Source: Trichostrongylus colubriformis (Eukaryota > Nematoda > Chromadorea > Rhabditida > Trichostrongylidae). From it: a stretch of DNA of 64,000 nt. Location of the stretch: positions 45,394,203 through 45,458,202 of the forward strand of contig OZ022257.1 in NCBI GenBank assembly GCA_963978905.1, given 5' to 3'. The notes beneath the pieces are model-generated. The model saw nothing but the letters and a program-made list of their open reading frames with translations. It was not told the DNA's origin and did no database searches. The position numbers were made by a program, and so were the translations under genes. This document shows, one piece after another, positions 39,601 through 58,331 of the stretch. Position 1 is the stretch's first letter, and each line of letters starts with the position of its first letter.

Positions 39601-42600
39601 GGTGGTGGTGGTCGTTCTGCTGCTTTTCGTCCAGTGTTAGTTCCAACGAGCACTTTTTCTTTTCTTTTTTGTCTTTCTTTTTCTTTTTTGTTTTTTCTTG
39701 TTTATTTCGCGTTTTGGTGGTTGTTTGATTCTTTTCGTTACGTGATAGTCGCACTATCTATGTTCTATTGCGGTCGTGCTTAACTATACTGTGATAACTA
39801 TTAACACTTTCATCTTACTTCTAACCGGCTAGTTCGTCTCGTGAATGGAATTCGCTGATGTTCAGACTTGAGAGAAAATTTCGCGTTGTCCTATCGATTC
39901 CTTGAAGGGCAATGAAAGAATCTTGCCCGGTGAGGGTTCTTCGAAAAATTTCTGCCCGAAGACTCCTAATACGCCAGACAAAGTGAGAAGATATGTGGTA
40001 AATAAGCGCTCGTCTGACTCAGTTCGCGCTGAATATCGCTAGCTCCCTTTGAAGGCTTGCGCAAATTCCGCGGGTTAACACTTTCTGGGGTATGTAGTGA
40101 TGTGCTGCACATGAGCGCGGTCGGCATCGTGAACCGCAAGGAAACGCGTGTTTGCGGCCTCTGTACAGGGGGTGCCGAAAAAAAATAGTTTTTGTCCTCC
40201 ACTTTCACCCCATATTAGTCGAACTTTGGCGAATTCCGAACAGGTATTTTCATCCCTGAAGTGAAGAGCAGACCTCACTTCACTGTTCTCCGTTACAGCC
40301 TTCTGAACGAGCAGGAACGGTTGCTTCTTCCGAGTGAGCAAGATGTGTCACATCAGCTGGGCAAAATCCGAAACTTCATCGCCCTTGTTCACAGCCTTGC
40401 TGAGGTCCCTCCACTCTGGGTTCCTGAGGGGATTCATACTGGGTGATGCTCTTGAATATTCCGTTTTTTCCGGTTCCCCAATGCCCTTCGTTTCCGAGAG
40501 CCAGAACGTGCCATTACCACTGAGACCCCTCCGAGGGCAGGTTTGAGGCATGAAAAATGATACTTCGGATCATAGCAGCCTTGTCCAAGCAGCATGGGCT
40601 CTGTGACTTCCATGATCCGAAGGGGCAATCTTTAGGAAGCTCCCCACAAAAGACCTACCAGGGAACTGGCTCCACTGTTTTAAGGGGACCTTGATACCGT
40701 GGGTGCTCTGAACCCCGACTGCGCCGCTTGAAGGCTCAATATTTTTATGAAAGTGAAGGTAGTGAGTCTCAGCTTGCTCCTGCTTCTAGAGGAGCTATCG
40801 GGAGTATTTCGCCCCTAAAATTTTATCTTTTCGTTTTCCTATGTTCTGTATACATGGCGGATGTAGGCCGTGAGTGGAATTATTTTTTTTGGCATCCCCT
40901 GTAAACGTTGTGCTGCCGATGATCTATTCAATAATTTTAAGAATATGGGATTTTATGATTCTTCATAACGGTGCTCACAAGATTCCATGGTATCCTCTTG
41001 ATGATTCTACTAGGTCGAAAGAGAAATTTTGGCCGGTTTTCGCAAATTTACTTGGGAGCCCATGGCTCGGACTCAAATTGTATCTTTTTCCACAAAATGA
41101 TCATCATTGGATGACTCATACTATTGCCAACATAATGCATATTTGAATTACCCACTTTGATTAAAGTCTGATGGTTTACATTGCGCAACTGCTGAAAAGT
41201 GGACTTCAAATCCATGCTTCCATAACACGCTGCTGTTGAAGGAGCTGTCGAGATGTTAAAAAGGGGTTCAGGTAGCGTCAGGTTTTACGGCGATTGGTAA
41301 CGAGTGGGGTCTCTAACCTGCATCTCCTTTCTTGTTTATGAAAGACGATCTGTGAAAAAATTCGCTCGTGCATGACTGCTCCGAAAGGTCGAGCAGCAAT
41401 TCTTTTTCAAAATTCGGCGATCTGGATCCATCCGAGGTGATCAACCACATTCATAATAGGGAATCTAATTTGTTTGGATATCCCCTGTGAATATGGACGC
41501 TCATCGTTTTCTGCTCTTTTATTAGCGCTTTGATCAACTATCATCCGGGCAACTTATTTCTCTCTGCACCTCTAAAATCAGTTCCAAACAAACTGTTCCA
41601 TCCGAAGCGCTACTTTTTCCCCTTGCGGTTCTTACATTTGTAGCTGCCACCGCTGCTCGACCAAACTAGAACACGTGAAGTCCAATAACTTAGAAGGTCC
41701 TTTTTGCTGTACTTCAAAAATCCTTCAACTTCAAATTCTTCATGCAATTACAGAGAAACTTTATTATTGAGAGAGAGTGATTTTTTCTGTATCTGAGGGG
41801 TACAATGGATGGGTTGATCTAGGTTGAGCTGCTTTGAAATTCGGATTAATCATGTAAATACGCTAAATCGGCCAGAACTTTCCTTACAACCAAGTATATT
41901 TTGTCGGACATTAATTGCCTGAAAGGAGGCTCACGTTGATTCAAAAGTCATGAGAGAAACTAGAACTGGAAAGGTATGTTTTTCCAAATGGTTGTGCGAC
42001 TTCCAAAGAGACGATAAGTCGCAAAGTTCGCGTTGCAAGGCGCGCCTAACGCTTTATATCTTCTCCTCGCTACGGTACGATTTTATGTGGTGGGTGCCTG
42101 CGGCGGAGTAGACGTAGAAGGCGGAGCACGTTCACCACTTGGTTTATTCGTTGACCCATCCTTTCAAGTGTGCGCAGGGCACCAAAGCACTTTTCGGCTG
42201 AGGTCGATGATCAGAGGGCCTTATTTTCCGGGTTTTGGGTGTTATTACAGTCCTCGATCGGGGAAAATTCTCCCCATCGTGTGTTTGAAGTGTTGCGCTC
42301 TACTCTAGGACGTCGCCTTGATTGTATAGTGATTTCTCGGTTTTGAAATGCCAATCCTTCCCTAGGACATCCCTCAGTGAAGACATCAGCGAATTCCCAC
42401 ACGTGAATCGTGCTTCATAAAGTATTGATCGCAACGCTAATGACACGCTCTCGAAATTTAGCCAACCACAAACCGATAGTTCGTCTGAAGAAGAGAATGG
42501 CAACGGGATGGATCTTGATCTGGGTGCTTTCGAACTCGTCGATTCTGGTGTAACTGCTGAGACGTTGCTCTCCACTGAAGAACCGGTCATTTATCATAGG

Positions 42601-45600
42601 GTTTGTACGATTTCAAACTGTTCCTACTGAAAATCAAAAATTAAAACACTTAGGATCTTCCCGTGCATTCCGTTCACCACGATACTGTGCAAACAGAGGC
42701 TGCCCTGGCGAATCTCATGTCAGCACCATCCAGTATGCTGACAGGGGCTATTCCGCCAACAATGGTTGAGGTAATTTGTGAGATTTTTTGCTGATTCTAG
42801 AAGCGCGTCATTATTATGATTTTAAATTATTGTGAACCAGAACCGCATTTCACATTTGTATGAAGACCTCGCTATCTTCTCGTTACTGGTGGAGGGATCT
42901 TAGCACCAACCAGACTCTTTTGCAAGAAAGTCTGATCGAAACTACTTAGCACCCTTCCACCAATGACGTCTATGATGGCACCCACCTTAGCGACCGTATG
43001 CCTTCAAAATAGTCATAGTATGCTATTTGCTCATCATTTTGTTTGTATTTGAGCACTGGGGCAGTAATTTAGAGACATTCAGGTGTGTAGAGTAATAAAT
43101 ATAGTGCAAAGATGAACTCAGGGGTGTACGAGAAGCCATCATTTGTTATTTTTGAGGTAGAACGGGCCTCAAAAGTGTCCAGTAGGTAGATTACAAAAGC
43201 GCTAGGCACGTTTCCACCACCTGATCCTTCCTCCAAAATGAGGCCTTGACAGTGATGGAGGTGTGCGATGAGGTACTATCTTAGGCACTGTTCAGGGTTC
43301 GTGATTCAGGCGATCAGGTGGAATGGAATAGACATCGATCAAGCAATTGGGCGATTAGCGATCATCAGCCTAATCGATGCGTACTTACGTTTCCGTTTGA
43401 TCGCCCAATCGTCCATTTGATTTGTATCTGATTTATTTTGCTCAGTTACAATCGCCTAGAACGCAGAGCGGTGGCAAACTCTGAACACTCCCTCAGAGTT
43501 CGGCTCTTGCAGCTAGCGTGATGAACACGCCAACGCGCCGAATCGAGACCGCACTTTGTTTCACCTGCTCTGTCGGTTTTCACCTTCTCATTGCAGGACA
43601 ACTACTGCTTTGTAGTGGACGGCGAAAGAGTGCGTATGGGTGATATTCTCGGCGATGACCAATGGTGGAGACATACGTCACGACCGACGAAGTACTTCTA
43701 TTCAGAAGACCTCAGGCAATTCCATCGTGTGAACTGTATCGCTGTCAAAGGCAAGGTGATCACAGCCAAGTTGGCCACATCTGCACTTCAGGTAAGTTGG
43801 TTTGAAAATTTTCAAAGAATCGTCCAGGGAGATTCGAGTTTTTCTTACTCCCATGCAGTTATTGTGGTTATTCATTGCAAGCCCTAGCACGCGAAAAATC
43901 AAAATCCTTTGTCGGGGATCACGAATTCGGGGTTAGAGGGCTCACGCCTCTGTCATGGATCCTCAGAGGGAAGGTGTCATTTCTGGGCTGGGAGATGGGA
44001 ATCGCTCCTAGTGCGGTGTTTTTCAAAAGATCAGAGTTAGAGAGAGCCGTGTTTTTCTCTCAGGTACCCAGAGTGAACGGACCTTAGCGAGGTTGTGAAC
44101 GAGGGCGACGAAATCCGCAATTTTGCCGTGTTGAGGTGACACATCATGTACACTCGGAATAATCTCCCGATCCTGTTCGTGGAGAAGGCTGTAACGGAGT
44201 TCACTGATGAGTGGAGGAGAACAATTACCTTTTTATTGGCACCTTGGCACCCCTATATACAGGGTGGGGCAAAATTACGGAAACAAGGCGCGGGCGGGGG
44301 AACTTTGACCTCTGAGGCGCTTTTCGCATTTGAAAAGCTCTTGCTTATTTTTATTCGATTCAGCGCAACCTTCTCTACTAACCAGCACAAAAATTTCATA
44401 TTTGATCTAAAATGACAATGCCATCCCCTCACCGGAATTCCCTCATCTATGCACCATCAAGGACTTCAGGCGATTGACATCTCCCGTCGTCTAAAGGTAT
44501 CACAAAGCCTTGTATCGAAATCAGTCGCAAGGTTCACAGAACTAGGAAACCTTTCCGACCGACCAGGACGTGGAAGACCGACTTCTGTCACGATCAGGGC
44601 GGACATCAAGAGAGTGCGTGATCGTCTGCGTTTGAAGCCAGTGCGGTCGCTTCGGAGATGGCAGAAGAAATGTCGATTTCCACGTGACAGATGGGCAGGA
44701 TTGTGAAAGATCACTTGGAAACTGAAGGCACACAAGCAAGGAGGAGGACAGTTTCTTTCTGCCGACAGCAAAAGGAACAGAAACCAACGCTACAGGAAAT
44801 TTTCCTAGATTTCATTGCCTTCGATGAATGGTCTCCCAGTTCCGAACCTCAACCCACTCGGTTTCTCTGTATGGAGTGTCCTCGAGCATAAGGCATGCTC
44901 AAAACCTCATCCCGACCTTAATTACTCGAAGGCAGCGCTGAAGAAAGCATGGGATGAGTTGGACGAAGGCTATCTCCTCGCCACGGTCAACGCGTTTTCG
45001 GAGCGTCTTCGAGCCTTTATCGGAGTAAATGGAGATGGTTTCAAAAAAAAAGTAGTACCGTTTGTTCAGTTTTTTCTGGAGAGTAAATCGGTAATGATTA
45101 TGTTTTTGTTCGAGCTGAAATAAGGTTTTTGGGTAGCATCAACTTAGTTTCCGTAATTTTGCCCCACCCTGTATATTTGGCTTGACTGCAAGGAGGTATT
45201 AAAAACTCAAGTTTCCGTGAGCAATTTCTTTGATTTTGCCTAACTCTCTCACAGAACCCAAGCGCCGTTTCCAGGTGCAAGCGGCTGGTGCCGCCTCGTC
45301 GTCGTCGACGCCGCGTTCATCTGTAAGTGGCGCATCGGCGCGTTCACACGGTCGTGACAACAAGGTACCATTGGCGCACGTCTACAAAGTGATACGTTTC
45401 TATTCGTTTTGGAAGACTTGCACATCCTTCCATCGTATCGTCACAATGATTGATCGAGTCACAGATGATCGTAATGTGAACCCGGACTTCAAGAAGCGTC
45501 TCTTTGTACAGTATCTTTGGCGAAATGCCAAGCCTGTTGAGAAGGCACGCGTACAGAAGGAATTTGATCCGCGACGACAACGACTGCTACGATTTGTCAC

Positions 45601-45637
45601 CGATCCTGCGGCTCGAAAAAGGTTTCAAAAAACGTGA
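21462..45637 (+). CDS. TWiK-type two-pore-domain potassium channel with giant C-terminal tail (spliced gene)
   Basis: The gene-level span covers about 24 exons, listed separately. Chained by codon phase they give roughly 1270 residues. Using the 21767 start: M1 about 36-58 (ending IFYRLE), a long extracellular cap, P1 with TIGYGN near 172, M2 ending in the K2P signature ITIGDLGKF, M3 about 268-292, P2 with TIGFGD near 312, M4 ending MCIDLVG then IQYIQKIHYFGRK. These mark a plasma-membrane K+ leak channel of the nematode TWK group. The tail after M4 is about 900 residues, whereas typical K2Ps are 300-500 in total. It has Ser/Arg-rich, Pro-rich and unrecognised modules. Two junctions are not phase-consistent. 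Whether it is one gene or a channel gene plus a downstream gene rests on phase agreement, not on transcript data. I do not assign a C. elegans twk orthologue. Confidence 0.8.
21767..21853 (+). CDS. Candidate 5' exon B of the K2P gene
   Basis: The ATG at 21767 opens 29 codons (MDQQLREIEGLLESS... ending TTRIKK), followed by a GTATTC donor in phase 0. Joining to the M1 exon gives ...TRIKK-YVKLALPHV, a basic stretch leading into M1 as in other TWK proteins. An in-frame stop lies about 40 bases upstream, consistent with a start exon. I favour this over exon A. Confidence 0.5.
22977..23084 (+). CDS. K2P exon: M1
   Basis: Follows a TATTTAG acceptor and ends at GTAAGT, phase 0 to 0. It encodes YVKLALPHVALVAVVCLYAV then IGAYIFYRLESPNEDR. 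The hydrophobic span and the GAxIFxxLE ending are the M1 hallmark of K2P channels. Confidence 0.9.
23428..23936. mobile_element. Foldback MITE in the first K2P intron
   Basis: The two halves are long inverted copies. The left TACAGGATTTTGCCAACAGT and the reverse complement of the right, TACACAACCTTGTCAACGAC, mark the ends. Inner arm blocks such as TCTGGATTGCGA, TTCTGACGCAGGTTTGCATC and GAGAGTCTCGATGCC are mirrored around a centre near 23690. A small secondary hairpin (AAGTGGTAATCC/GGATTACCACTT) lies near 23578-23607. TA at both ends. There is no coding content. Confidence 0.85.
24543..24609 (+). CDS. K2P exon: extracellular cap, part 1
   Basis: TTTTCAG acceptor, phase 0 in and phase 1 out at GTAGGT. 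It encodes LKAVGKALIGDMRTNLIAKI then RN, an amphipathic segment where the cap helices of K2P channels lie. Confidence 0.8.
25709..25805 (+). CDS. K2P exon: extracellular cap, part 2
   Basis: CTTTCAG acceptor, phase 1 in and phase 2 out at GTAAGC. It joins in frame to the previous exon and encodes GSQKVWKDSIEDELYRFNDK then IYKAFKEQYV. The charged helical composition fits the cap. Confidence 0.8.
25860..25934 (+). CDS. K2P exon: cap to P1 linker
   Basis: ATTTCAG acceptor, phase 2 in and out at GTGCTG. It encodes RYADVRIVPSQELLRKDDSD then RPKRH, and is separated from its neighbour by an intron of only 54 bases, typical of nematodes. Confidence 0.8.
26003..26091 (+). CDS. K2P exon: pore helix and first half of P1 filter
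   Basis: GTTTCAG acceptor, phase 2 in and phase 1 out. It ends with KMWTASSALFFAATTMATI. The filter Gly codon is split by the intron and completed by the next exon as TIGYGN. Confidence 0.9.
27109..27204 (+). CDS. K2P exon: P1 filter and M2
   Basis: TTTTAAG acceptor, phase 1 in and out at GTTCAG. It encodes GYGNIVPATSSGRIACVVFA then LFGAPLAIITIG. It completes the first filter and carries M2 up to the ITIGDLGKF signature, which continues in the next exon. Confidence 0.92.
27264..27371 (+). CDS. K2P exon: M2-M3 cytosolic loop
   Basis: ATCCAG acceptor, phase 1 in and out at GTAGGT. It encodes DLGKFLSECTIWLYKEMKKG then RALLYARWRRFRGLNK. DLGKF directly after M2 is characteristic of TWK channels. 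The loop is strongly basic. Confidence 0.92.
27470..27579 (+). CDS. K2P exon: loop and start of M3
   Basis: TATACAG acceptor, phase 1 in and phase 0 out at GTAATT. An acidic/Ser-rich loop (ENEDAESQLSSSRSLDWEDL) leads to VPVFMVFTILL, the first part of M3. Confidence 0.88.
27580..29764 (+). other. Long K2P intron, no element resolved
   Basis: About 2.2 kb lies between the two halves of M3. I found no coding exon or terminal-repeat element. A possible unmatched repeat lies near 27780-28070. The intron ends with a clean CAACCACAG acceptor. Confidence 0.6.
29765..29846 (+). CDS. K2P exon: M3 and P2 pore helix start
   Basis: Phase 0 in and phase 1 out at GTGAGT. It encodes KFQLYIAFGGVLFSFLEGWT then YMDAFYY. 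The W-x-Y-x-DAFYY motif before the second pore is typical of TWK channels. Confidence 0.9.
30450..30508 (+). CDS. K2P exon: P2 filter
   Basis: CTTTCAG acceptor, phase 1 in. It encodes SFISLTTIGFGDIVPENHEY, with the second filter GFGD. The donor is best placed at GTTATT after ...GAGTAC, leaving phase 0. The following M4 exon needs phase 2, so either a small exon is missed or there is an indel. Confidence 0.85.
30829..31357 (+). mobile_element. TTAA-flanked MITE in a K2P intron
   Basis: It is bounded by TTAA on both sides (30825-30828 and 31358-31361). The ends are inverted: AGACAACATTAGGGG on the left and CCCCTAATGATGCCT on the right. It aligns over its whole length with 61726-62277. A TTAA target is the habit of piggyBac-class elements; no transposase is present. 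Confidence 0.85.
31690..32420 (+). pseudogene. Mariner transposase relic in a K2P intron
   Basis: Scattered mariner motifs are legible in order: MEDKPRSGLS near 31880, NNARSHAAKSTQAKLQELGW near 32063, PPHPPYSPRIAP near 32130, then FSNSQNPDFWKERIND near 32255. Stops and frame changes separate them. The Asp expected after PYSP is replaced by Arg. No clear terminal repeats remain. It resembles the relic at 14840-15481, so probably the same subfamily. Confidence 0.75.
32438..32561 (+). CDS. K2P exon: M4
   Basis: Two acceptors are possible, GATAG before 32438 or TTCAG before 32450; both read the same frame and need phase 2. It encodes (CWFS)YIVLMLAYLGIGLAVTTM then CIDLVGIQYIQKIHYFGRK, ending in phase 0 at GTTAGT. 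MCIDLVG..YI.KIHYFGRK is the conserved end of M4 in nematode TWK channels. Confidence 0.88.
33208..33326 (+). CDS. K2P exon: proximal C-terminal helix
   Basis: TTTAG acceptor, phase 0 in and phase 2 out at GTGAGT. It encodes FRGTDLLHLLKRKRMIERRL then AMGQGEEILQMYIQQMQNQ. The basic amphipathic stretch just after M4 is expected in TWK proteins. Confidence 0.85.
33357..33473. repeat. Short AT-rich foldback in intron
   Basis: TAGGGTAATCTATAATTTAT on the left is mirrored by AATTGTAGATCACCCTA on the right. The centre is an AT-only run of repeated TAATTTATA words. It may be a very small MITE. A single end-like piece (GGGTCACCCTGTAGAGAATA) occurs near 33930. Confidence 0.4.
34533..34592 (+). CDS. K2P exon: acidic tail segment
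   Basis: ATTTTCAG acceptor, phase 2 in and out at GTAGGT. It encodes LPEPVVVEQQWEEDKTSSHI. Confidence 0.8.
34699..34794 (+). CDS. K2P exon: tail segment
   Basis: GATTTTCAG acceptor, phase 2 in and out at GTATGT. It encodes EWQIDDALMSSYYSFDFPLA then IRVPSPNVLSIR. Using the earlier TCTTAG acceptor would end the protein after three more residues, so the 34699 acceptor is preferred for the long form. A short form is possible. Confidence 0.75.
35343..35393 (+). CDS. K2P exon: short Ser-rich tail exon
   Basis: CTTTTAG acceptor, phase 2 in and out at GTGAGT. It encodes SYRPPSTYSNSSASARS. Phase agreement with both neighbours is the main support. Confidence 0.7.
35699..35807 (+). CDS. K2P exon: Ser/Glu-rich tail exon
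   Basis: CATTCAG acceptor, phase 2 in and phase 0 out at GTTTGT. It encodes MLKRRSESRGESWDESGPSI then SEHCSLSTEPSVHIRQ. The RRSES motif is a plausible basophilic kinase site (inference). Confidence 0.75.
35861..35951 (+). CDS. K2P exon: tail segment
   Basis: TTTTCCAG acceptor, phase 0 in and phase 1 out at GTTTGT; the intron before it is 53 bases. It encodes AYWDNYQTPTASPSSFDYEM then PLPSPDYQKI. Confidence 0.75.
36004..36671 (+). CDS. K2P exon: large Ser/Arg/Pro-rich tail exon
   Basis: TTTTTCAG acceptor, phase 1 in and phase 0 out at GTGAGT. It encodes about 222 residues. It opens with an Arg-rich patch (CARRSRRLRSCPSG), continues with Ser/Pro-rich low-complexity sequence including CDSPPPPHPATIDF, and ends with a more ordered part, DVDWLNVSPRVMQLVKHDLP then KLFEHVRTDN. 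The base composition is visibly more GC-rich than the flanking introns. Likely a cytosolic regulatory region; no catalytic domain is recognised. Confidence 0.8.
36672..38215 (+). other. K2P intron
   Basis: About 1.5 kb without a recognisable exon. TTAA then AGGAATCTTCCACGGAAAT near 37175-37197 matches the terminal sequence of the TTAA MITE at 63478-63902, suggesting a solitary end or short remnant. Confidence 0.5.
38216..38292 (+). CDS. K2P exon: conserved-looking acidic/aromatic segment
   Basis: TTTTTAG acceptor, phase 0 in and phase 2 out at GTACGT. It encodes PVGVACMEDWDSYIRMLEDY then NKPYE. Confidence 0.75.
38624..39229 (+). CDS. K2P exon: long proline-rich tract
   Basis: TTTGAAG acceptor, phase 2 in and phase 2 out at GTTTAG. 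It encodes about 202 residues. The middle 130 or so are dense in Pro, Ser and Thr, with repeated SPP, TPP and PSPPLPSMPPSPPSPP motifs. The end turns acidic (VVPEEHELIMEQDESEDML). PxxP motifs could bind SH3 or WW domains, and many SP/TP sites could be phosphorylated (inference). Reading the opposite strand gives an artefactual Gly-rich frame. Confidence 0.8.
39277..39550 (+). CDS. Possible alternative terminal exon
   Basis: A strong acceptor (polypyrimidine tract then TCTCAG) follows the 39229 donor by only 47 bases. In the phase left by that donor (2), the frame stays open to a stop at 39548-39550, adding about 90 residues (SLMVVSDIMQSILSIDLVGG..., TKFECMMLLTPNVRDKDTIE). It could give a shorter channel lacking the C-terminal module. 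The opposite strand is also open, so this could be chance. Confidence 0.4.
39551..42461 (+). other. Long K2P intron containing a dispersed repeat
   Basis: A repeat at about 40170-40560 is found again, inverted, at 43885-44255 (listed separately). A possible short unassigned exon (GACATCCCTCAGTGAAGACA from 42365) precedes a GTGAAT donor but does not fit the phase of its neighbours. The rest shows nothing recognisable. Confidence 0.5.
40170..40560 (-). repeat. Dispersed intronic repeat, copy 1 (inverted relative to copy 2)
   Basis: Its reverse complement aligns with 43885-44255 through several blocks: CTCAGGAACCCAGAGTGGA, GTGAACAAGGGCGATGAA, GTGACACATCTTGCTCACTC and AGAAGGCTGTAACGGAG. I estimate roughly three-quarters identity by eye. 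No transposase was recognised. Both copies lie in introns of the same gene and face each other. Confidence 0.65.
42462..42600 (+). CDS. K2P exon: start of C-terminal module (copy I)
   Basis: AAATTTAG acceptor, phase 2 in and phase 0 out at GTTTGT. It encodes QPQTDSSSEEENGNGMDLDL then GAFELVDSGVTAETLLSTEE and PVIYHR. The phase agrees with the 39229 donor. Confidence 0.75.
42654..42770 (+). CDS. K2P exon: C-terminal module, segment 2 (copy I)
   Basis: ACTTAG acceptor, phase 0 in and out at GTAATT. It encodes DLPVHSVHHDTVQTEAALAN then LMSAPSSMLTGAIPPTMVE. The VYSV/VHSV and IPPxMV words recur in the downstream copy (55074-55442). Confidence 0.8.
43597..43791 (+). CDS. K2P exon: core of C-terminal module (copy I)
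   Basis: ATTGCAG acceptor, phase 0 in and out at GTAAGT. It encodes DNYCFVVDGERVRMGDILGD then DQWWRHTSRPTKYFYSEDLR, QFHRV and NCIAVKGKVITAKLATSALQ. The downstream copy shows DN(Y/F)CF, DG(E/D), ILxxxQWW, T..FYS.DL..FH, so this is an evolutionarily constrained domain. I do not recognise it. Confidence 0.85.
43885..44255 (+). repeat. Dispersed intronic repeat, copy 2
   Basis: The counterpart of 40170-40560 in opposite orientation. It ends just before the Tc1-like element at 44258. Confidence 0.65.
44258..45173 (+). mobile_element. Internally deleted Tc1/mariner-class element in a K2P intron
   Basis: Perfect inverted ends TACAGGGTGGGGCAAAATTA then CGGAAAC (27 bases), with TA on both sides. The length is 916 bases. 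A 5' transposase fragment encodes the DNA-binding helix-turn-helix (LQAIDISRRLKVSQSLVSKS, then GRPTS). The 3' fragment has the end of the catalytic domain (LNPLGFSVWSVLEHKAC, then AFSERLRAFIGVNG). The middle, with two catalytic Asp residues, is missing, and the third position reads Gly. A non-autonomous relative of the element at 47226. Confidence 0.88.
45255..45637 (+). CDS. K2P terminal exon: end of C-terminal module (copy I)
   Basis: CTCACAG acceptor, then open to a stop at 45635-45637. It encodes PKRRFQVQAAGAASSSSTPR, a Ser/Arg linker, then KVIRFYSFWKTCTSFHRIVT, MIDRVTDD, DFKKRLFVQYLWRNAKP and a basic end (RRQRLLRFVTDPAARKRFQK). This frame needs phase 1 in, whereas the previous exon leaves phase 0, so a small exon may be missing between them. 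FW.TC..FHRIV and FKKR.F.QY.WR recur in the downstream copy. Confidence 0.8.
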
Positions 45638-47225
45638 TCCCCTGCTGTCTGTATCTATATTTATCTGTGTGTGAGCGTGCCTTCTGCCTTGTTTCCCTTC
45701 TGCTCCATTGCGTTTTCATTCCAAACTTGATGAAATATAGAGGAACTTTTCGCTCTACGTCACCTCGCTTGTATGTCAGTGGTCCAGTGTCACAGCGAGG
45801 TTGGAATTCGGTGATCCATTCATTTTCTATTTTATCTGAAGATATTGTTAAATGCATGAAGTGCGTCAGAATGCTAGTGTATGTGGGACGTATATGTCCG
45901 TTTTCCTTGTTCGTATGTCTGCAGTATCGCTCCGCCCACTTCTACATTCGCTTTTATCGTCATCTCAACACATCTTCTCGTATTGTTCCTATCGCAACGG
46001 GTCCGATATGTCCGTCATCTTCACGGACGGTCACCACGCTCAGGTATAGCGCAAGATGCTCTGTATCCGAGATTCTAAAGCGGTTGACACTATAGGCATT
46101 GTTTATTTCCTTACCCATTTCCAGTCTACTATAGCAGTTAATAGATAAGATAGACAAAAAGAGCAAGTTTTAGCGGGGGATGGACGTACGATTGACAGGA
46201 AGAGCAAGTTCTAGGGGGATAGACGTTTTCGAGCACTAAAAACTTCGACCGTAAGTGAGTCACCATATTGAGCTATGCTTATTACAGTTGTTTGGATTGG
46301 AGGGAACACGGATATTCTTCCACGAAAGGCTATGTTAAAGCAAAAATGACACATTCGCGAGCAACTAAGAAAAAACTGAGAGAGTCGCCCAAGTGACTAA
46401 GACCTTCTTTTAGCAAATGGTCACTGGATCGTGACCCCCTTTCTCAGAATATTGTGCGTGTTGTCATGAATTTGAACGTAGATCAGCCAGAGACGTGACT
46501 ATCTCTGATGTGAGGGTAACTTGTGTTTCCTGAATCTACCACGCCCATCTCCCGCTTACGCGCACTGCTCTTCCTGTTTTCCTGTCGTCTAACCTTCCAC
46601 GGTCCCATCGCATAACTACCCACATGCGCTTCTCAAGTCGCCTTTCCTTCCAAAGGAACTAACTGTCGTGTGTGCATGTCAATATAGTTGTATTTACAGT
46701 ATGCTTTTCTTTGTCACATTCGGCTATCATACTCCTTCACCACTGTACTTCTACCTTCTCCTACTATAATTATATGTTTTATTTATTCGTTGTTGCAAAA
46801 GAGTGCTACCGGATATCATACGAATTTATGCGTACTGTGCATTTCTGCTCCTGTATACGTCTTCTATGTGCTATGAACTGTGTTTTGTAATATCGAAGGT
46901 GCGTGATATATAAATGGTGTGCTCATTGCCGCTTCACGCTTTTTCCCTGTTCGCCATATTCTGTCCTTTCCTGTCATTCCACTTCTTTCTTGTCTTCACT
47001 GTTTTTGTCTATGACGACGGTAAGAGTGCAAGCGTATTTCATTTCCTTTTCTTTCCTGCTCATTGATGATCACTGGAAACCAAGCGATCCAGCGGGACAT
47101 ACATTCTATCATGAAGTGAAGGCTCCACAAGGCATCTAGTAGAGCGATATGATAGCCTTGTACTAAGGATTATAGTCGTACCCTTCATGCTCAGGGAATA
47201 TCCTTGGATAATCTCATCTGAGAAG
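45638..47225 (+). other. 3' flank of the channel gene
   Basis: Probably contains the 3' untranslated region. I found no canonical AATAAA close to the stop. Open frames here are Cys/Ser/Phe-rich and look like chance. Near 46140-46225 two diverged copies of AAAAGAGCAAGTTTTAG.GGGGAT occur. Confidence 0.4.
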
Positions 47226-48502
47226 TACAGGGTGGCTGGTAAGTATTGGCGCGTTCTTTTTATTGCAATTTTCCTACATTTTTGTTTAATTCTTCTCTAT
47301 TGTTATATGTCATTTTGTAGCACTTTTTTTCTGCTTTCTGATAGTATTTGCCTTCAGAGGCCATGAAACCTTGCATTCATCGAAAAGCTATTGCAAGATT
47401 ATCGGAGGAGGGCGAGACCTGCACAAGCATATCTCGTAAGCTAAAAATCCCTCTAAGAACCGTCCAGAGGATTGTCAGGCAATGGAAAGCTAATGGAAAT
47501 GTTGATGTGACGAAGCCACCCGGTCGACCTTCTTCTGTAAATACACGCAGGATTCGTTCCATCATCAAGAAGAGGATTTCAAGAAATGACGGTGGAAGCA
47601 TGAATTCCATTGCAAAAAGTTTACAGATTTCCCGCTGGAGTGTCCAAAACATCACCAAGAACTCGCTAGGTCTCCGTAGTTATCGTTTATACAAGGGACA
47701 ATATCTATCGGACTCGGCCAAGCAGAAAAGACTTAAGAATTGTAAGAAGATGCTCGAACTTCTGAAGACGCGCCGCATCTCTGACATCCTATGGTCGGAC
47801 GAAAAAATTTTCACAATTGGGAATGCTCACAACTCTCAAAATGATCGCCAATTGATCAATCCGCTTCTCAAAAATTCTCGTAAAAGAAGAATGTCCACTA
47901 AAACGTTATTTTCGAAAGGAGTCATGGTATGGGCTGGAATATCAGCTACAGGCAAGACACCACTTGTCTTCATAGAGGAAAATGTAAAAATGAATGCTCA
48001 AATTTACCGGGATGAAATTCTGAAGAATGTTGTGATGCGGTGGAAGCAGAACAACCGCAACATGATCTTCTAACAAGATTGGGCCCCGGCCCATGGAGCA
48101 AAAACCATACTGGCTTATTTGGAGCAGGATTTCCCAGGATTCCTCGACAAAAATCATTGGCCTCCCAACAGCCCAGACTTGAATCCGCTAGATTTCTGTG
48201 TGTGGAGCGTGATGGAAGACAAACTCAAGAATAAGAAAATACCTAGTTTGGACTGCCTTTGAAAAGAACTAGTGAAGATATGGGACGATATAGACATAGA
48301 CTACCTGCGGCTCACGGTCGACTCTGTCACGAAACGTTTGCAAGCCTGCATCAAAGCTAAGGGAGGACACTTTGAGAAATTGTTGTAGATATTGTTGTTT
48401 GCACTATTGTCAATGTTTTTAATCAATAAAATCATTCCCACAATGCATAGTTTTCATTTTATGACGATTTTGCTAACGCCAATACTTACCAGCCACCCTG
48501 TA
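47226..48502 (+). mobile_element. Near-intact maT-like Tc1/mariner transposon
   Basis: 1277 bases with perfect inverted repeats of at least 26 bases (TACAGGGTGGCTGGTAAGTA then TTGGCG). A single transposase gene fills the interior. It ends in TA at both sides. It shares the outermost TACAGGGTGG with the 44258 element, but the inner TIR bases differ, so it is a distinct family. Intact TIRs and few lesions imply recent activity. Confidence 0.92.
47363..48388 (+). pseudogene. maT-like transposase with two in-frame stops
   Basis: Encodes about 340 codons in one frame from ATG 47363. The N-terminus carries a paired-like helix-turn-helix DNA-binding region (IARLSEEGETCTSISRKLKI), then the linker motif GRPSS. 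The catalytic core has Asp in DILWSDEKIFTIG, Asp in QDWAPAHGAKTI and Asp in SPDLNPLDFCVWSV. By my count 37 residues lie between the second and third Asp, matching the DD37D (maT) group rather than DD34D mariners or DD34E Tc1. TAA at 48071 and TGA at 48260 break it; each is one C-to-T change from a sense codon. No frameshift is seen. Confidence 0.88.
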
Positions 48503-48756: not shown

Positions 48757-49902
48757 TCCTGCCGCCAGTGTTGCCCTAGCGTGGACCAATTCGCCATTTC
48801 GCTCGATTCCTGCCGACTTGCATCCAGTATGGTAGACCGTGTTCTGAATGGTATTGAAAATGTGTCAATCCACCTTGTTGGCGGTCTTCCCAGCGGTCTC
48901 GTCGTGTTATTCAGTTACCCGCCAACTTCATCGGCCGTGTGAGCAAAAGGTCGACCAAACGGTGCTTCAGCTTGTTCATGTACTGCAACGGGTCTTGCAA
49001 TGGCGACTTCTCTCCTATATCCGCACTTTCCTCGAGAAGAGTCTTCCCAGTTTCTGATGGGTCGACTTTGGATTCTGCCCTCTTGATTGGTTAATTCCGT
49101 TGCGTAGTACTGACGGCAGTACTGAGGCGCTCAAGATTGACGCAGATCTGCACCTCTTAGCTTGTCAGTCACTTCACGGCTCGAGTTGGTTTGTCCAATC
49201 GCTCGCTATGTGTCATTTGCCTTCCTAGGTATACATAGAGATGCAGCCCCTGATTGGTGATTTCTGGCATTTTTGCTGTCGCTTTCCGTTACTGGTCAGC
49301 CATAATTTTCGACTTCTTCATCTCCGAACCGATTCGTCCCAGCTACGCTGAACGCCTCTTCATCCCCAAACCGACTCTCGTAGCAACGCATAGATCGCTG
49401 ATCACTGTTTTCATCTTTGTGATGTTACTCGATATCAGAACGATATCACTAGAGAAGTAGGATCGATTATCCCATCAATTGGGTGCCTTTATCTTCCCAG
49501 TGCGGATCGGCTTCACGTTTTGCATCATCGCCGTAACCATTTCAGGAAATGCAGTATCTCCTTTGTGTACTTCACTCTCGATGCGGACTTCCGGTTTTCG
49601 TTCAAACAACTGAATCGCGCTTCAAGTTCGAGAAGCGAGCAAGTGAATGTAAGCTTTGAGAACACCAGCATGCGTCAGGGCGTCAAGGACAGCATTTGTC
49701 TCAACAAAGTTGAAGACTCCCTTGCAGTCCACAAAGGCACCAGTGGTAAATGACACTCGCGACTGCTGTCGATAAGCTGGGAAAAACTTCGAATGTGATC
49801 TAGGCGAGCGAAGATCGTGTCAAAACCGGCCTGCTTCACTGGTTGGTAGTCATCAGTTTCCATGCCTTCGTTGAGAACTTTTATGCAAGTCTCATACGTC
49901 AT
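48757..49902 (-). pseudogene. RTE-like non-LTR retrotransposon relic (reverse transcriptase)
   Basis: Read on the minus strand, the 49900-49640 part encodes a decayed reverse transcriptase segment: VKQAGFDTIFARLDHIRSFS (the AGF..DHI motif), LIDSSRECHLPLV, then after a frame slip FVDCKGVFNFVETNAVLDAL, matching the FVDYKKAFD palm motif with substitutions. At 49030-48757 the minus strand gives the C-terminal signature LGRPPTRWIDTF, then DASRQESSEMANWSTLGQ. Between them the frame is broken. The endonuclease end is not clearly visible. Confidence 0.75.
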
Positions 49903-51750
49903 GGCGGGTGGCTTTCTCGAGTGGCAGTATCGATTCAGAAGTATTCCTCATGTTTGGTGGCTTACGAAGAGAAAGGTAGTAGTTGAGGTGCTTCGCATGA
50001 GAGCTGCGTCCAAGAGTAGATATACAGAAATGCTGACTGGACTGGGAGCAGGCGTTATATCGGGAACAATATGGGCGCCGACACAGAAGTAAGTGTGAAG
50101 GTCCCTGGCAGCGTCAACGTCACCACTATGAAGTAGACGCTGAAAGCAGGGTTTATGAAGAAATGCAATTTTGTGTCTCAATACTGAACGTGTAGATCTT
50201 TCTTCGAGGTCGCAGGTGTAGAAGAAAAGGGTGATCCATTTCAATGTCAGCATCCAATCTAGATAGAAAAATTTCTGTGCAACCCTTTTGCAAGACTGCG
50301 CGGTGAAGAGAGAACTGATCCATCCCGATTGCAACGTTACTGAAGGAAGAATTGGTAAATGTTCATATGACACAGGTTACCATTTGAATAATTGTTAATT
50401 GGAGATTTGTATATGGTAGCCGATACCAGATCAGTCATCTGTGAGGACATGTCACGCTTCTTCATAAGAATAGTATCGAAAGGGACAAAGGTTTTCAGAA
50501 GCATTACAGATTGTTACATGACTTGCAATGGATCAGGAAGAACTTTTGATCTGTCCAGTCGTGTAAGAATGAGAAGATCTTCCGCATCGCAAAAAGGCAA
50601 AGTGTCTTAATAACTGAGGCAACCATTGAGCTGGATGATAAGCGAGCTAGGCAGCAACCTGAGTTGAGGTCATCAGCGACCTTGACGACTCTTTGAATAT
50701 TTCGTTTCAGAATTTTCTGCAGTGACCGCTCAAGTGCTTCTTAAAGTCTGCACAAAAATATACCACGTATTCAAAAAATACTTATGGGAGTTGTGTAAAC
50801 GACACAACTTAGAGATAACCGATAGAGCAAATGATGTAAATGTTTTGGCAAGCCCGCATTGAGCGGAAAATTGCTTCTAGAGGTTTACAGTGGCTTATGA
50901 TCCTGGTTGTGACAAAAATTCTCAGCGATAAGCGTGTGAAAAGCAGTACATCTTTCGCGAAGTACACTCGCGAGCGTAGGGTCCAGATAATCCACAGTTT
51001 CTTTTCTTCTCCTTTGTATTTTTTCTTCTATGCTTTTCAGGATACAAAGGGGCGGAGAAGCGGTAAAGATGAACATGTTCTTTATTGAGAATGATAATAT
51101 CTCTAAAGATTTGCGATAATTACCTCAATGAGAGCATGTGATCTACGCTTTCACCTTCTACATCTTTCTACTTCTTGCAATGCAGCATCGTACTGGGCCG
51201 CAGCTTCTATCCGCTCTTTTCTAATAGCTTCCAAATGTCCTTGCTGGTGGCAGCTATTCTCAGGAAATCTCTTTGACGCAGATTCGTCGAAGATGAAACA
51301 TGTATGTTTGCTGTAATTATCGACAACGGTGAGGATGCCACGTCAAGGCCACCTCTGATAAAAACTCCGCATATTGAACGGTAAGTCACGAAATGTAAGA
51401 GTAGTGAGGCAGTGTAATAAGTAGCCATGATTATTCGCTCATTTTGCTTTCAATTTTTCGTTGTTTCCTCGATTCCATAAGGGAGGACCATAAGGGCCCC
51501 ATAGAGTGTGCATCACTACGAGAAAATACTGAAAATTTTTCCTGTGCAAGGAGTTGAAGACACAATTTACGATCTTTGTCATCAGTGAAGTATCTAGGGA
51601 TACTGAATAATACAGAAGTGAAGGAAAAGTTGAAAGAAAACTTTAAAAAACCCCTCAGTAGAGCCTTGCCAGCCTTCGTATTGGATGAGATAACAGCACA
51701 GGAGTTTCCACAGTTTCCTTCTTGGTCTTCCACCCGCCATTCACCGTATC
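49903..51750 (-). other. Coding-like minus-strand fragments, unassigned
   Basis: Minus-strand pieces with protein-like composition occur at about 51733-51431 (RYFTDDKDRKLCLQLLAQEK), 51300-51160 (HLEAIRKERIEAAAQYDAAL, then QEVERCRR) and 51076-50885 (SIEEKIQRRRKETVDYLDPT). They could be the upstream part of the RTE relic or exons of an unknown gene. I recognise no family and cannot chain them. Confidence 0.3.
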
Positions 51751-52229
51751 ACCTATTCCGTGTTGGCGTTATTCAGGATGTTCTCTGAAAATAAAAAGAT
51801 CCGCAACAAAACTCACGTTGGGGGCTCCTTTGTGTTTTTAATGTTATTGCGGCATCACTTGGCTGCACTTCGGTTTTGCGACTATCGGAGGGCCGTGAAA
51901 GTGTGAAAGGTGGGGAAACGAGCACAAGGCTGGCTTATGATTGGGTACGACGCTTTTTGCATCTTTCTCGTCGGTGGTACACAGCATACGAAAAGACTTT
52001 ACTCACCGTGACGGAGTACTGTCCCGTTTCCTGCAAGTGCTATGGATAACGGAGAACTATGAGTGGAAAGACCGATTATATGGCGATAAACATTCCTGTC
52101 AGCCTAGCACAGATGGTTTCCGCGTAAAGCTGCTACATAGTAAGGGATGCTGCTGATTGTATAGTAGCTCGTGAAGATCTTGTAAAAGAACCACCGACGC
52201 ATAAAATGTGGTAAGATCCTAAAGGTACA

Positions 52230-53028
52230 CTACGCGATGATCAGATTAGTGGCTTACTTTTTGGGGCAAGCAGATCTTGGATAACTGCTCAGGCCGCACC
52301 TCTGTTGTATAGGGTGTGCCAGTGAGGGCGCTCGATCTTTGACAGCTCATGACGCACACGTTGTTTGTGGAAGAGTTGTCAAACCAGTTGTTATTATTCA
52401 GTGTATCTTCACAAACCATGAACCGATTCAGCCACGAGCAATGTGTGCAAGCCATTAAAAATTATTACAAAAGTCATTCATCGGTTTGAGCAACGTTGCG
52501 CGCGCTCCGCGGAACGTTGCTCCGAAATCGGCAATATGGATGTCGAGGATATGTGGTTTCAGCAGGACGGCCCTACGAGCCACAAGCGCGCGCCACAATG
52601 GATCTTCTTCACGAGCGCTTCGGAGAAAGGGTTACCTCACGCGGAGGCGACATCAACTGGCCACCGAGATCGCGCAATTTAACCCCACTGGACTATTTCT
52701 TGTGGGGTTTTTTTTAAATCGCGAGTCTACGCAAACCAACCACAAAACACTGATGAGCTCAATGTCAACATATGCCACGCCATCGATGAAATACAGCCCG
52801 ACTTGTGCGTCAGAGTGATTGAAAATTGGTCTTCTCGTATGCGCTCCACCAAGCGAAGCCGAGGTAGCAGGTGTGATTTGGGTGGGTGGGCGTGGCTTGG
52901 TTGTGTTCAAGCGGACATAACACCATGATGATGCACCGTGCATCAGCAACAAAGGTGCAGTCTGAGTAGTTATCAAAGAACCTACTCGTCACAAGTAATA
53001 AAATCACTGTTCTGATCAACGCGTAGTT
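52230..53028. mobile_element. Foldback MITE interrupted by a mariner-class insertion
   Basis: The left arm starts TACGCGATGATCAGATTAGT. The right arm ends TCTGATCAACGCGTA and carries, inverted, the same blocks (GATAACTGCTC, CCGCACCTCTGTTG). The arms match the ends of the element at 61562-62442. The left arm is cut short at about 52308, where a foreign transposase-bearing segment begins; the right arm is longer and reads TGTTCAAGCGGACATAACAC. Confidence 0.7.
52310..52850 (+). pseudogene. Deleted mariner-class (DD41D-like) transposase relic
   Basis: The ATG near 52420 opens MNRFSHEQCVQAIKNYYKSH, typical of the N-terminus of this group. A deletion then leads to DMWFQQDGPTSH (second catalytic Asp). 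After a frame slip it continues MDLLHERFGERVTSRGGDIN, WPPRSRNLTPLDYFLWG (third Asp), and KSRVYANQPQNTDEL. About 40 residues separate the two Asp residues once the slip is allowed for, suggesting the rosa-like DD41D group rather than DD34D. The outer end TAGGGTGTGCCAGTGAGGGC begins near 52310. Confidence 0.75.
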
Positions 53029-53301
53029 GCCTTTACCCGCTTCACTTTCAGCTGAGAAAAAAATGCAGCACAAGGACCATCACCACCACCACCACCGTAA
53101 TCATGCGATTTTCCTCGTAGTTGATACTCGAATGAATGTTTGATCTATCAGTAACAAATTAGCCTGTACTCCGAAATAATAATTAGTGAACATTTAGGAT
53201 TTTTATCTTGAAAAAGCGTTTTACAGTGTGACCTACGAACAGATCATTCCAGATTAATGACACAGTCATCACTCTGATTCCTTCCAATATTAATATTTAA
53301 G

Positions 53302-53366
53302 AGACGATTCTGAAGACTCAACCATCGATTTTCCTGTGAAAGTGAACGTGCTTCCCGTGAAACATC
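53302..53366 (+). CDS. Copy II exon a
   Basis: ATTTAAG acceptor, phase 2 in (as for the 42462 exon) and phase 1 out at GTAAGC. It encodes DDSEDSTIDFPVKVNVLPVK. The phase-2 entry is what makes splicing from the 39229 donor possible. Confidence 0.6.
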
Positions 53367-56300
53367 GTAAGCTTTACTTTTGTCGTTATTATAGAAGAGG
53401 CTTGCCTACTGATTGAGGAATCGCTCACGGAAATTTGATTTTTTTCAGTTACCCGCATAATTATGTTTTTGCTTACTACAGGTCACATGCATAGTTTCAT
53501 GCGGTTCAACTAGACGTCCGAGATACATCCCTCAGTAGTGTCGTCCAAGGGGGTGAAAGGGAATATCGTGAGAGGGGCCACCAATGCAGTGTGGGCGGTA
53601 AAACAACACTGAAAGCAAAGTTCTGGATTGCGCTCCTTTCCGCCGACAACTATTTAAGTGCGGTTTAGCGATAAAGCGAGTTGGAGTTATTTCGGACTTT
53701 TGATTTTTGTGCTAGAACGAAGGGTTTTTGGGTTCTTTTTGCGTTTTCGTTAAAGTAATGTATGTGATGCAGTTGTTTCTTTCGAGGGAAATTGGAATTG
53801 TGGAAGTTCCGTGCACGCTCTCTCAACATGGAAGAAACACTGCTACGAACGTTGCTATCGTCCAGGCAGTCATGAAGTGATCCAAGCAAGAGAATTAGCT
53901 TCTTGAAGTCATCACACTTTTTGATGCGATCCTTTCAAATGTTGCTATCGTCCAGCAGTCATGAAATGATCATCCAAGCAAGAGAAATAGCTCCTTGAAG
54001 TTCATCACTTTTTTAATGCGATCCTTGCACAATACTTAGTCCTGATCTGTAGTATGAATCAAACTAGGACCAAGACAAAGGGTTGGACCTCGGCAGCGCG
54101 CGAGGAAAGCAAATCAGACAGGCAGAGAAACGGCTCTTGTATCTGGTCGCACAGTCTCTACCATTTGCCGATACGTTTGCGCACTCCGTATGAGAGAGAT
54201 CATGTAGCGAGGCGACCGATGATCGGTAGGAGAACCAACGTTGAGCAAGGTGGGCAATTGGGCAGGTATCGAAGGAGAACCATGAGGCATTGGTGAAGCA
54301 GAGGAAGAGCGACGGTCGTTGTCGTGAATTTTTGGCGGCACTTGGGGTTTTATCACGTAAGCTTCTTGTCTCCAGATCACGCTAGTGTTCGGGTATGTGC
54401 ACTTATGACGGAAAGTCGCTTTACGTCGTCGCACTCGCGACGCCATCAGTACGACTTGCCGAATTTATTGTCCTTGGGAGCTCGGTAGAGCGTGGGTGCG
54501 TCACCTCTGCACTTTCACCCATGCCACACTGCCTCATGCACCTATGTCACCCTGCCTCCTCCACCCATACCACACTGCATCGCTCGAAAGCTGCCATGCG
54601 CTGTCACTGGCACTCGCACCCGCCGGGCCGCTCGTCGTGCGCTGCCGCGCGGAAATCCATCATAAGTGCACACACCTCTACTGTTCGAGCATTGCTTTGA
54701 CAGAGGTACAATGATCGCAGTCTACCCCAATCGCAAGTTCAGCTATAATTTTTGGCGATACCCCAAATAAGCCCCGACGCACTCGACAATGAACTCCTGA
54801 CATAGGTGCGGTATCATCTATGTCACTTCAGCGGACTCTAACATGAGTCGCTCGCCTTGCCTCAATGTTATAAGTTCAGCAACGAGTAAAAGAAATGAAG
54901 GAGTGTGAAAAGCGGTGAAGTTAAAAATTCTCATCAGGTGCGCTGGAAAAGAGATGTGGATCATTGTAGGATGGTGGTGGTGCATGTGGTGCATTTACAG
55001 GAGAGCAGTTGTCTCTACTTGTCTCGTGCAGAGCGCTTCTTCAGTTCTTCCTACACTAACTGAGTTTTTTAAGTGAGTATAGACGCTGATGATGTACTCT
55101 ATCATTACGGAAACACATGTGAGCCCATTCCTGTGTATTCGGTGGACGAAAAACCGCTAGATGGACCATCCACTCTCACCAACACCCTCAAATGCCCGGT
55201 ACAGTACATTAGTAAGGTGAGACAAAAATCTCCCATCGCTGGGTCCTCGTGTCCGTGTTTTCTTATCCTTCCAAGTGTGAAGTTTTCAGATCCCACCGTC
55301 AATGGTCTCCGATAACTTTTGTTTCATTTGTGATGGTGATGAGGTGTCTGTAGAAGAAATTTTGAGCGAATGTCAATGGTGGAAGCAGACCAGCAGCAGT
55401 ACACGATTTTACTCATCTGACAATTTAACCACTTTCCATCAGGTACGCTATCCTAATTTTCAGAAAGGATGCGTAGATAGCTTTGCGCATGATCATGTAA
55501 TATGGATATACTCAATATCTACGAAGCAGTCTATGGAAAGACAAACGAAGTTTCCAATCAAGGGAAAGAGACCTGGACAGACATAAGCGCCCATTAATTT
55601 TATCATGCATTGGCATACAGCTCGCGAGTACTGTACCCTCATGCTCGGTCTAGATCGCCCTTAGAGTGTCGTATTGAAGTGTACTCCTTCTTTTCGGTAC
55701 TGAAAAACTATTCTACGATCTACCATTTTCTGGGGGCGTCACCATTTCTTTCTAATGCTCTCTTTATGGTGGGGGTGTCGCGACGACCTCGGGGTATTAA
55801 CATTTAGTCTTGCATGCATCGGCGACTTCCCAGGGTAAACACCTGGCGATGTGATTGACTGGAACTGACCTGTGCGGGTCCTGTGCTGTGACCTCACCCG
55901 TTGTGCGCATCTTTGCTCCTGACCTGATGGGGTGCCGCGACTGACCAAGCGACCTCTGCATGGACTTGTCTGCTCAGTAACCCAACCGACACTTCTACTC
56001 AATGTGCCTCCCACACCAACTGTTTGTATTTCCTTCGTGCTTGCGTTATATTGTTAAAGAAAAAGCAGTCAGTGAGCATCATGGAAAGAGCAAGTTTCTA
56101 TGCAACAATGAAATGCTCTGCTGTTGAGCGCAATTCCTAAGTATCTGTCTATTCTAATTCTTGAGTTCAGGTCACGCTGTTGACATGTCGAGGGGAGACA
56201 CGAGGTGCCTACCGCTCAAGGGTACAAGGAGGAGCTATCGCAAAAGTTTCGCTAGATAAGGTGAAATCTCACTTTCATTTTTTTCTCAGTGCTGGAAATT

Positions 56301-57705
56301 TCTACAAGGATTATGGATCAGCCTCTAGCTTGAATTCCACCCGGAAAATTCCACATAATCAGGCAGATTAGTATTTTTTTCAACGACGCACCTCGTGCTA
56401 TGTGGCGTAGTCAGATTCCTTGGGGCAGACAGATCGGCCCTTCCAAAGTTCCCTCTATAGCGGCGCCACGATTAGTGATGGGCATTGTAACCGCTTGAAC
56501 TGAGACCAGACAACTAATCGTAACCATTGTTGATCGCAAAATCACGTAGCGACGTGATGTACGCCCTTACCGCTTGTCCCTTCCCCCCTATGACCTCTTA
56601 CTCGCCTTTTTAGCCTGGTTCTGCTTTTTGCTTTTTTCTTTTTTTTCTATACCACCTGAAAATAGCTAGAAGACTTCAAACTTGGCAGATGTGAAAAGTT
56701 AATGTTTTTTTACTACGCTGTCTCCATTACTGGAAGTGATAACCTATCTGAGGATATGGTAGAATGTGCCTTTAAGGTCTTCCGAGTATCGCGTTACTTC
56801 AGCTCATGGAGGACATGCCCTGGATTCCACCGAATAGTGTCCACCATTAATCCTATCACTGAAGGTAACCAATGTTTCTATTAATGTCATTCTCATTTTT
56901 TCACCCATTTCTAACGCGCATTTTCCTTATTTCTAAATGATCCTAATTGTGGATTAGGCTGCTACCCCACACGAAACTGCGATACTACGATCGTGCGGCT
57001 TGCATGTGTCAACACGCGCACTTCACTCAGGCCGCATTCATACTTTGCGCCGGAAGGGCGTGGCTGCTGGCCTGTTGCTCGAGTGATTGATTCATAGAAT
57101 TGTGGAATCAATACGTACCCAGTGTGCACTCGACTGCAAGTGTTCAAGGGTGGTTCAGTGGGAATCCAAATTATCAAACGCAAAGCAGCAGAAAAAGCAT
57201 TCTATGTGAATCCGGGTGTATATCACTAGGACAAAACCGTCGCGTGGCCGTGTTCGGCACGCGACGGTTTTGTCCTAGTGATATACACCCATGTAAATCC
57301 AGTGGGCTCATGTATTGGGGACGTTCTACGCATCTCAGTCATATCGCACAAGATGAAACCATTACAGTCTACTTCAGATTCTCAGGCAGGCAAAACAATT
57401 TCTATTAATCGTCTTATACAACAAAAGCAATAAATTGGAAAATGTAACTAAAGGTCGCGAACTACCGCGACAACAAGTGAGCGGCAAAATGTTCGCAAGG
57501 TATAACTGCTGCCTTGTGTGAACATTATCTAGACATTGTAGAATTTATGCATTTTGGTTCGGTCATCTTCCTCAAAGCATTTTTTCTACATATCTTTTGA
57601 GTGTCACAGTTTATTAGTGAATATCACAAGAAATTTTCAGAAGGAGAGAGAAACTATGAATTCAAAAAGCGGATATTCATACAGTACTTCTGGCGATCAG
57701 AAAAA
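53302..57705 (+). CDS. Second copy of the K2P C-terminal module (copy II, spliced)
   Basis: Six exons can be read: 53302-53366, 55074-55216, 55290-55442, 56171-56260, 56737-56864 and 57641-57705. The first four join in phase, as do the last two; the 56260/56737 join is unresolved. The product tracks copy I (42462-45637) segment by segment: VYSVDE.., IPPSMVSDNFCFICDGDEVS, ILSECQWWKQTSSSTRFYSS, FHQVTLLTCRG, FKVFRVSRYFSSWRTCPGFH, then FKKRIFIQYFWRSEK. Intron positions partly differ. No ATG, channel exons or signal peptide are evident. It may be a separate paralogue, an alternative 3' end of the channel gene, or a partial duplicate. Confidence 0.7.
53851..54028 (+). repeat. Tandem duplication of about 90 bp inside copy II intron
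   Basis: GTTGCTATCGTCCAGGCAGT through GATGCGATCCTT occurs at 53851-53940 and again at 53941-54028 with a few substitutions and small indels. Non-coding. Confidence 0.8.
55074..55216 (+). CDS. Copy II exon b
   Basis: TTTTTTAAG acceptor, phase 1 in and phase 0 out at GTGAGA. It encodes SIDADDVLYHYGNTCEPIPV then YSVDEKPLDGPSTLTNTLKC and PVQYISK, aligned with the 42600-42770 part of copy I. Confidence 0.75.
55290..55442 (+). CDS. Copy II exon c (module core)
   Basis: GTTTTCAG acceptor, phase 0 in and out at GTACGC. It encodes IPPSMVSDNFCFICDGDEVS then VEEILSECQWWKQTSSSTRF and YSSDNLTTFHQ. It is collinear with IPPTMVE plus the 43597 exon of copy I. Here the IPP segment and the core share one exon, whereas copy I splits them. 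Confidence 0.85.
56171..56260 (+). CDS. Copy II exon d
   Basis: GAGTTCAG acceptor, phase 0 in and out at GTGAAA. It encodes VTLLTCRGETRGAYRSRVQG then GAIAKVSLDK, matching FHR-VNCIAVKGKV... of copy I, where no intron interrupts this point. Another possible coding piece lies at 56290-56370 but does not fit the phase. Confidence 0.65.
56737..56864 (+). CDS. Copy II exon e
   Basis: CTGGAAG acceptor, phase 2 in and phase 1 out at GTAACC. It encodes DNLSEDMVECAFKVFRVSRY then FSSWRTCPGFHRIVSTINPI, matching KVIRFYSFWKTCTSFHRIVT of copy I. Confidence 0.8.
57037..57062 (+). repeat. Solitary end of the GCGTTCATACTTTGCGC foldback family
   Basis: GGCCGCATTCATACTTTGCG matches the terminal sequence of the element at 59718-60116. 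No partner end was found nearby. Confidence 0.4.
57214..57290. repeat. Perfect 33-bp hairpin, 11-base loop
   Basis: The arms 57214-57246 and 57258-57290 are exact reverse complements (GGGTGTATATCACTAGGACA, then AAACCGTCGCGTG). It lies in the last intron of copy II. Near-identical words TGTGAATCC and TGTAAATCC flank it. Confidence 0.85.
57641..57705 (+). CDS. Copy II exon f
   Basis: AATTTTCAG acceptor, phase 1 in and phase 0 out at GTAGGT. It encodes EGERNYEFKKRIFIQYFWRS then EK, matching DFKKRLFVQYLWRN of copy I. Confidence 0.8.
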
Positions 57706-58185: not shown

Positions 58186-58331
58186 TTCCCCATCTCAAGA
58201 AAGAAATTTAAAAAGCAGCGATTACAGCCTCATGATCGTGCTTTGGTTTCCAAGGAGTACCTGGATTTTCGAACATCCTCTTCAGAACCACGGAACAGTC
58301 TTGTGCCACCGTCCACATCAACAGTTTCTAG
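58186..58331 (+). CDS. Possible copy II exon g
   Basis: The GATGCTAG acceptor at 58185 fits phase 0 from exon f. It encodes FPISRKKFKKQRLQPHDRAL then VSKEYLDFRTSSSEPRNSLV and a Ser/Pro-rich end before a GTATCA donor in phase 2. The basic start and position recall the EKARVQKEFDPRRQRLLRF end of copy I, but identity is low. An earlier CCACAG acceptor at 58130 would end after about 25 residues. No stop was found for the long form. Confidence 0.4.

Follow-up and report, generated by a model that had tools for sequence, protein, structure and literature searches.

The closest counterparts of the locus analysed here are composite terminal exons, TWK-2 of Caenorhabditis elegans and a potassium channel of Angiostrongylus cantonensis, described below. 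In composite terminal exons with intronic polyadenylation, a single splice donor decides whether the C-terminus is short or long. In C. elegans TWK-2, a two-pore domain potassium (K2P) channel core is followed by a long tail; the long protein records carry module I and then module II at the C-terminus, and a short record ends after module I. According to PMC9049526, TWK-2a carries G181 (filter 1) and I208 (TM2.6), twk-2 mutants have movement defects, and twk-2 is co-expressed with twk-40 in the AVA and AVE neurons. We analysed 64,000 nucleotides of Trichostrongylus colubriformis DNA (assembly GCA_963978905.1, contig OZ022257.1, positions 45,394,203 to 45,458,202; this whole stretch is called the window). 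The + strand gene of the window is quite probably a single K2P channel gene (21767-59669) with two 3′ ends. Its 3′ end resembles a composite terminal exon in that one donor would decide the C-terminus, and differs in that the added portion is paralogous to the module that precedes it. We consider it likely that module II is an optional extra on the channel tail and not a substitute, with the channel carrying either module I or modules I and II.

The gene model was extended from the exons of an earlier reading of the window (the sequence-only reading), using GT-AG introns; all exons and signals given below lie on the + strand. The K2P channel exons N1-E17 (21 exons, 21767-39229) contain the start codon (21767), two pore loops and an intracellular tail, and include the E14 region (35699-35807 and 35861-35951). 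The pore loops, with GYG near 27110 and GFGD near 30475, fall in exons E3-E4 (GYGN) and E8 (GFGD), and Pfam Ion_trans_2 matched the channel core in two stretches (1.1e-35). With two pore loops, both selectivity filters and the Ion_trans_2 match, the predicted product is a two-pore domain K+ channel (K2P/TWK), which would be expected to pass a K+ leak current. Compared to C. elegans record P0017, window residues 3-782 were 51% identical and residues 1002-1254 were 72% identical, collinear and including module I, and P0017 carries both G181 (filter 1) and I208 (TM2.6). On this pairwise similarity and the two residues, the gene is taken to be the ortholog of C. elegans twk-2. Record names vary: homolog P0029 was named Twk-2 by its submitters, other homologs carry the automatic names TWiK 7 or KCNK18, and the C. 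elegans records P0014-P0017 and P0025 are titled only "Potassium channel domain-containing protein".

Module I is encoded by E18 (42462-42600), E19 (42654-42770), E20 (43597-43791) and the short form of E21 (45275-45637), which reads to ACG TGA with its stop at 45635-45637. Module II follows as II-1 (53302-53366), II-2 (55074-55216), II-3 (55290-55442), II-4 (56171-56260), II-5 (56777-56864) and II-6 (57641-57705). No exon of either module interrupts the expected frame, and all have GT-AG ends. The two modules were 36% identical over 200 aligned columns (BLASTP, 1e-43), and their alignment score of 336 compared with 31 ± 4.7 (maximum 50) for 500 shuffles; a nucleotide self-comparison of the window returned no match between them at 1e-5. 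By their alignment, the two modules are genuine paralogs. The sequence-only reading had described a channel gene with a duplicated C-terminal module, in which 53302-57705 repeats 42462-45637 collinearly. Both statements were borne out, with stop-free copies; the extent it gave was incomplete, as one exon precedes 53302 and another follows 58331.

The preceding one is the bridging exon B (51282-51380, FVEDETCMFAVIID...HIER, phase 2 in and 2 out), which encodes the stretch FVED...IER that links the modules in relatives and was 51% identical to Angiostrongylus over 35 residues (1e-6). The penultimate exon II-7 (58228-58331, PHDRALVSKEYLDF...STVS) matches PCDRALISKEYLDF of Angiostrongylus P0001. 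The terminal exon of the long form, II-8 (59456-59669, stop TGA 59667-59669), was 64% identical to H. contortus P0048 over 66 columns (2e-23). The short form comprises 25 exons (21767-45637) and 1255 residues, ending after module I; the long form comprises 34 exons (21767-59669, all GT-AG) with both modules, and measures 1590 residues with a donor at 45621 or 1594 with a donor at 45633. Neither contains an internal stop. Residues 1-1584 of the 1590 aligned with residues 1-1520 of the 1520 of Angiostrongylus P0001 at 66%. The alternative 3′ ends proposed earlier fit these two open reading frames. The earlier observation that copy II has no obvious start also holds, and copy II reads as a later portion of the one gene.

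We assessed whether related channels carry module I, module II or both. A search with module II as query, directed at module II behind a channel (candidates of roughly 590-1870 amino acids), returned five proteins, and module I preceded module II in 5/5. A module I search returned 46 homologs, 16 of which also carry module II, always after module I. Because module I is present by construction in this second set, the 5/5 count is the fair test; the 46 homologs show the order and spread of module II, not whether it occurs without module I. Pfam PF07885 was found in 13 of the 16 proteins with both modules, and 4 of the 16 are C. elegans isoforms (1519, 1448, 1302 and 1231 amino acids). The named module I homologs were all from nematodes (45/46; P0026 is unnamed).

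In the relatives, the join starts at the end of module I (RKRF or FQKI), not at the proline-rich exon ending at 39229. The passage from module I to VED was recognisable in 13/46 homologs: seven have FQKI, including the four C. elegans isoforms, and six proceed directly from RKRF. C. elegans P0017 (1519 amino acids) reads FQK-IFVEDD, and C. elegans P0025 (1016 amino acids) has module I only and ends with FQKM directly after it. Ten of the 46 homologs terminate in FQK followed by a single M, L or S. The Angiostrongylus cantonensis K2P channel (P0001, 1520 amino acids) has the same arrangement of channel, module I, bridge, module II and Ser/Arg-rich tail, but it joins RKRF to VED without FQK and its bridge has no methionine. 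The C. elegans long form differs in keeping FQKI at the join, and the module II cores of C. elegans and the window share only 44% identity. The reading of one gene with an optional second module is based on two open reading frames with consensus splice sites, on collinearity with relatives and on the presence of both forms in the C. elegans records.

The long form has two candidate 5′ splice sites within 45622-45639, one after 45621 (aaaaag|GTTTCA) and one after 45633 (aaaaac|GTGATC). They are 12 nucleotides apart and share the same phase, and the short-form stop overlaps the second. The window offers one candidate donor for each join style, 45633 for FQKI and 45621 for RKRF. Upon read-through of E21, ACG TGA ends the protein; for the 45633 site, this TGA lies within the GTGA donor. 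Where a GTAA or GTGA donor opens a phase-2 intron, read-through stops after one residue, in agreement with the M, L, S or T that ends the short forms. E21 would then be a composite terminal exon, for which the window holds both an open short read-through form and a long donor-using form, and one weak donor (45621 or 45633) would decide the 3′ end. If the donor is unused, translation would stop a few codons later, at 45637, and the message would be processed within the intron, yielding a channel with module I only. If it is used, E21 would be joined to B and II-1 to II-8, placing modules I and II in tandem on the cytoplasmic tail. This choice is probably made at a single weak 5′ splice site where module I ends. 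Both donors scored low, at 3.7 (45621) and 2.8 (45633) compared to 1.7-9.9 for 28 other donors of the gene, which made up the matrix (without N1-N3 and E14a). An AATAAA (60638-60643) about 970 nucleotides beyond the long-form stop is a candidate poly(A) signal. Between the short-form stop and 47300 we observed only variant hexamers and no AATAAA; TATGAA (46872) and TATAAA (46909) are candidate short-form signals.

In a phylogenetic tree built from 33 rows for module I and 15 for module II, the two modules separated with 100/100 support. Because its module II rows span both Caenorhabditis and strongylids, together with Diploscapter and Auanema, the duplication is old by this tree and predates the parting of Caenorhabditis and strongylids. 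A second module copy was also found by BLAST in two Aphelenchoides proteins, both outside the final tree. One of these, the second copy of P0029, had a very long branch (2.32) and grouped with module I in an earlier tree; as its placement is unsure, it was left out of the final tree, and the module II rows of P0018, P0020 and P0021 were added. Near-copies were dropped before the trees were built (P0007_I, P0014_I/II, P0015_I/II, P0016_I/II, P0025_I, P0037_I and P0012_I). Rows whose end was unrecognised were also dropped (P0010 II, P0029 I, P0042 I and five II-only proteins), and the pattern missed P0019 II, the P0040 second copy, P0041 and P0043-P0046.

Several observations weigh against a single gene with an optional module II. 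Both the use of the two forms in T. colubriformis and the role of donor strength are what we infer from the sequence. Of all GT dinucleotides in the window, 18% and 27% score at least as high as the donors at 45621 and 45633, so these donors do not stand out by themselves; they are plausible weak donors, named by homology and not by score. The acceptor of exon B scored low (2.1, on a matrix that included one misplaced acceptor, E14 at 35833), and the intron between E21 and B spans 5.6 kb and contains a mariner-like element. Angiostrongylus provided the only long strongylid model in the module I and channel-length module II searches. In Nippostrongylus, the channel and module II have consecutive locus tags. 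Finally, a search limited to short proteins (candidates of about 150-475 amino acids) found ten proteins with module II only, in strongylids and Heterorhabditis. Because that search returned short proteins only, the ten cannot weigh one reading against another.

Such proteins would be expected if strongylid module II were a separate transcript, made from an internal promoter or with a trans-spliced leader at B/II-1 and encoding a short cytoplasmic protein without a channel. Ten are annotated, those of Nippostrongylus and Oesophagostomum begin at a methionine within exon B, and the Necator II-only product shares the locus tag of the channel, with no long Necator form seen. Against this, the other N-termini among the ten are unlike each other, as gene-finder guesses would be, and P0048 and P0051 start at the exon II-1 boundary without a methionine. 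The methionine in B is missing from Angiostrongylus, Diploscapter and C. elegans. FVED(E), between the B acceptor and the first ATG of B, is conserved, yet it would be untranslated if translation started there. For a nematode operon, 5.6 kb would be a long gap. We regard a separate transcript as unlikely, although it is the main rival reading. A combination, in which the strongylid twk-2 locus would give a short channel (module I), a long channel (modules I and II) and a channel-free module II protein, appears slightly more doubtful again. If it were true, the channel-free protein from an internal start could compete with the channel tail for partners.

The sequence-only reading had raised possible mutually exclusive 3′ ends, with the donor of E17 at 39229 spliced either to module I or to copy II (here B/II-1). 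The phases agree, as both the 42462 and the 53302 exons need incoming phase 2, splicing from 39229 to 53302 is open in frame, and the two products that skip module I are open (1325 and 1292 codons including the stop). The shared phase is weak evidence, since a tally of the phase list gives phase 2 at 12/33 junctions of the long model. The relatives join from the end of module I, not from the counterpart of 39229, and none of the five channel-length proteins found with module II lacked module I (0/5; these are records only, not proof); the 16/46 homologs agree but were fetched with module I. The acceptors of B and II-1 are also accounted for by joining E21 to B. Mutual exclusion was therefore not upheld, and we consider it very improbable.

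That copy II is a decayed duplicate is barely credible: module II evolves faster than module I (core identity to C. elegans 44% vs 79%, to Haemonchus 92% vs 96%), but all nine of its exons retain open frames and intact splice dinucleotides, and its core remains 92%, 88% and 82% identical to that of Haemonchus, Nippostrongylus and Necator.

We also examined the modules for a known family or fold. Pfam gave no match for the window's modules I or II at E ≤ 1, nor for four II-only proteins, P0012 or P0029 at E ≤ 10. The structural model of module II (P0047) was strand-rich and confident over about residues 61-240, with no significant match in the PDB. The module I model (P0012) was weak (mean predicted local distance difference test score 52.8) and had no match at 1e-3; Foldseek and VIA gave no reliable fold for the modules. 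A literature search found no paper on the tandem modules, which is not proof of absence. The module I region is better conserved to C. elegans than the preceding protein (72% vs 51%). Because the named matches are from nematodes only, no Pfam model applies, conservation is higher and the duplication is old, the C-terminal module is probably a nematode regulatory domain of the channel, presumably with a role in channel regulation or anchoring. The downstream portion that public strongylid annotation splits into separate proteins most likely forms the end of the channel. The channel concerned is one whose C. elegans mutants move abnormally (PMC9049526), and the short and long ends offer a simple test of the role of the second module.

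Public record P0051 (GCK32_006567, T. colubriformis, partial) covered 56% of the module II query at 99% identity. Its model omits exon II-5, is frame-shifted after II-4 and has its terminal exon out of frame; this model of module II looks mis-annotated. The proline-rich exon E17 (38624-39229) appears skipped in Haemonchus P0005, where residues 788 to 790 lie opposite window residues 784-986. Because it is phase 2-2 and apparently skipped there, E17 may be a cassette exon.

The window also contains mobile elements and repeats. An element at 47226-48502, in the intron between E21 and B, has 26-bp perfect terminal inverted repeats beginning TACAGGGTGGC and a transposase-like open reading frame (47345-48070, continued at 48074-48259); we take it to be Tc1/mariner-like. 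A second element, in the intron between E20 and E21 (44255-45176), is bounded by perfect 30-bp inverted ends and includes transposase-like fragments. The stretch 52422-52815, in the intron that precedes II-1, is presumably a remnant of a mariner transposase, which it resembles. A dispersed repeat was present at 30823-31360 and 61720-62280 (86% identical over 562 columns).

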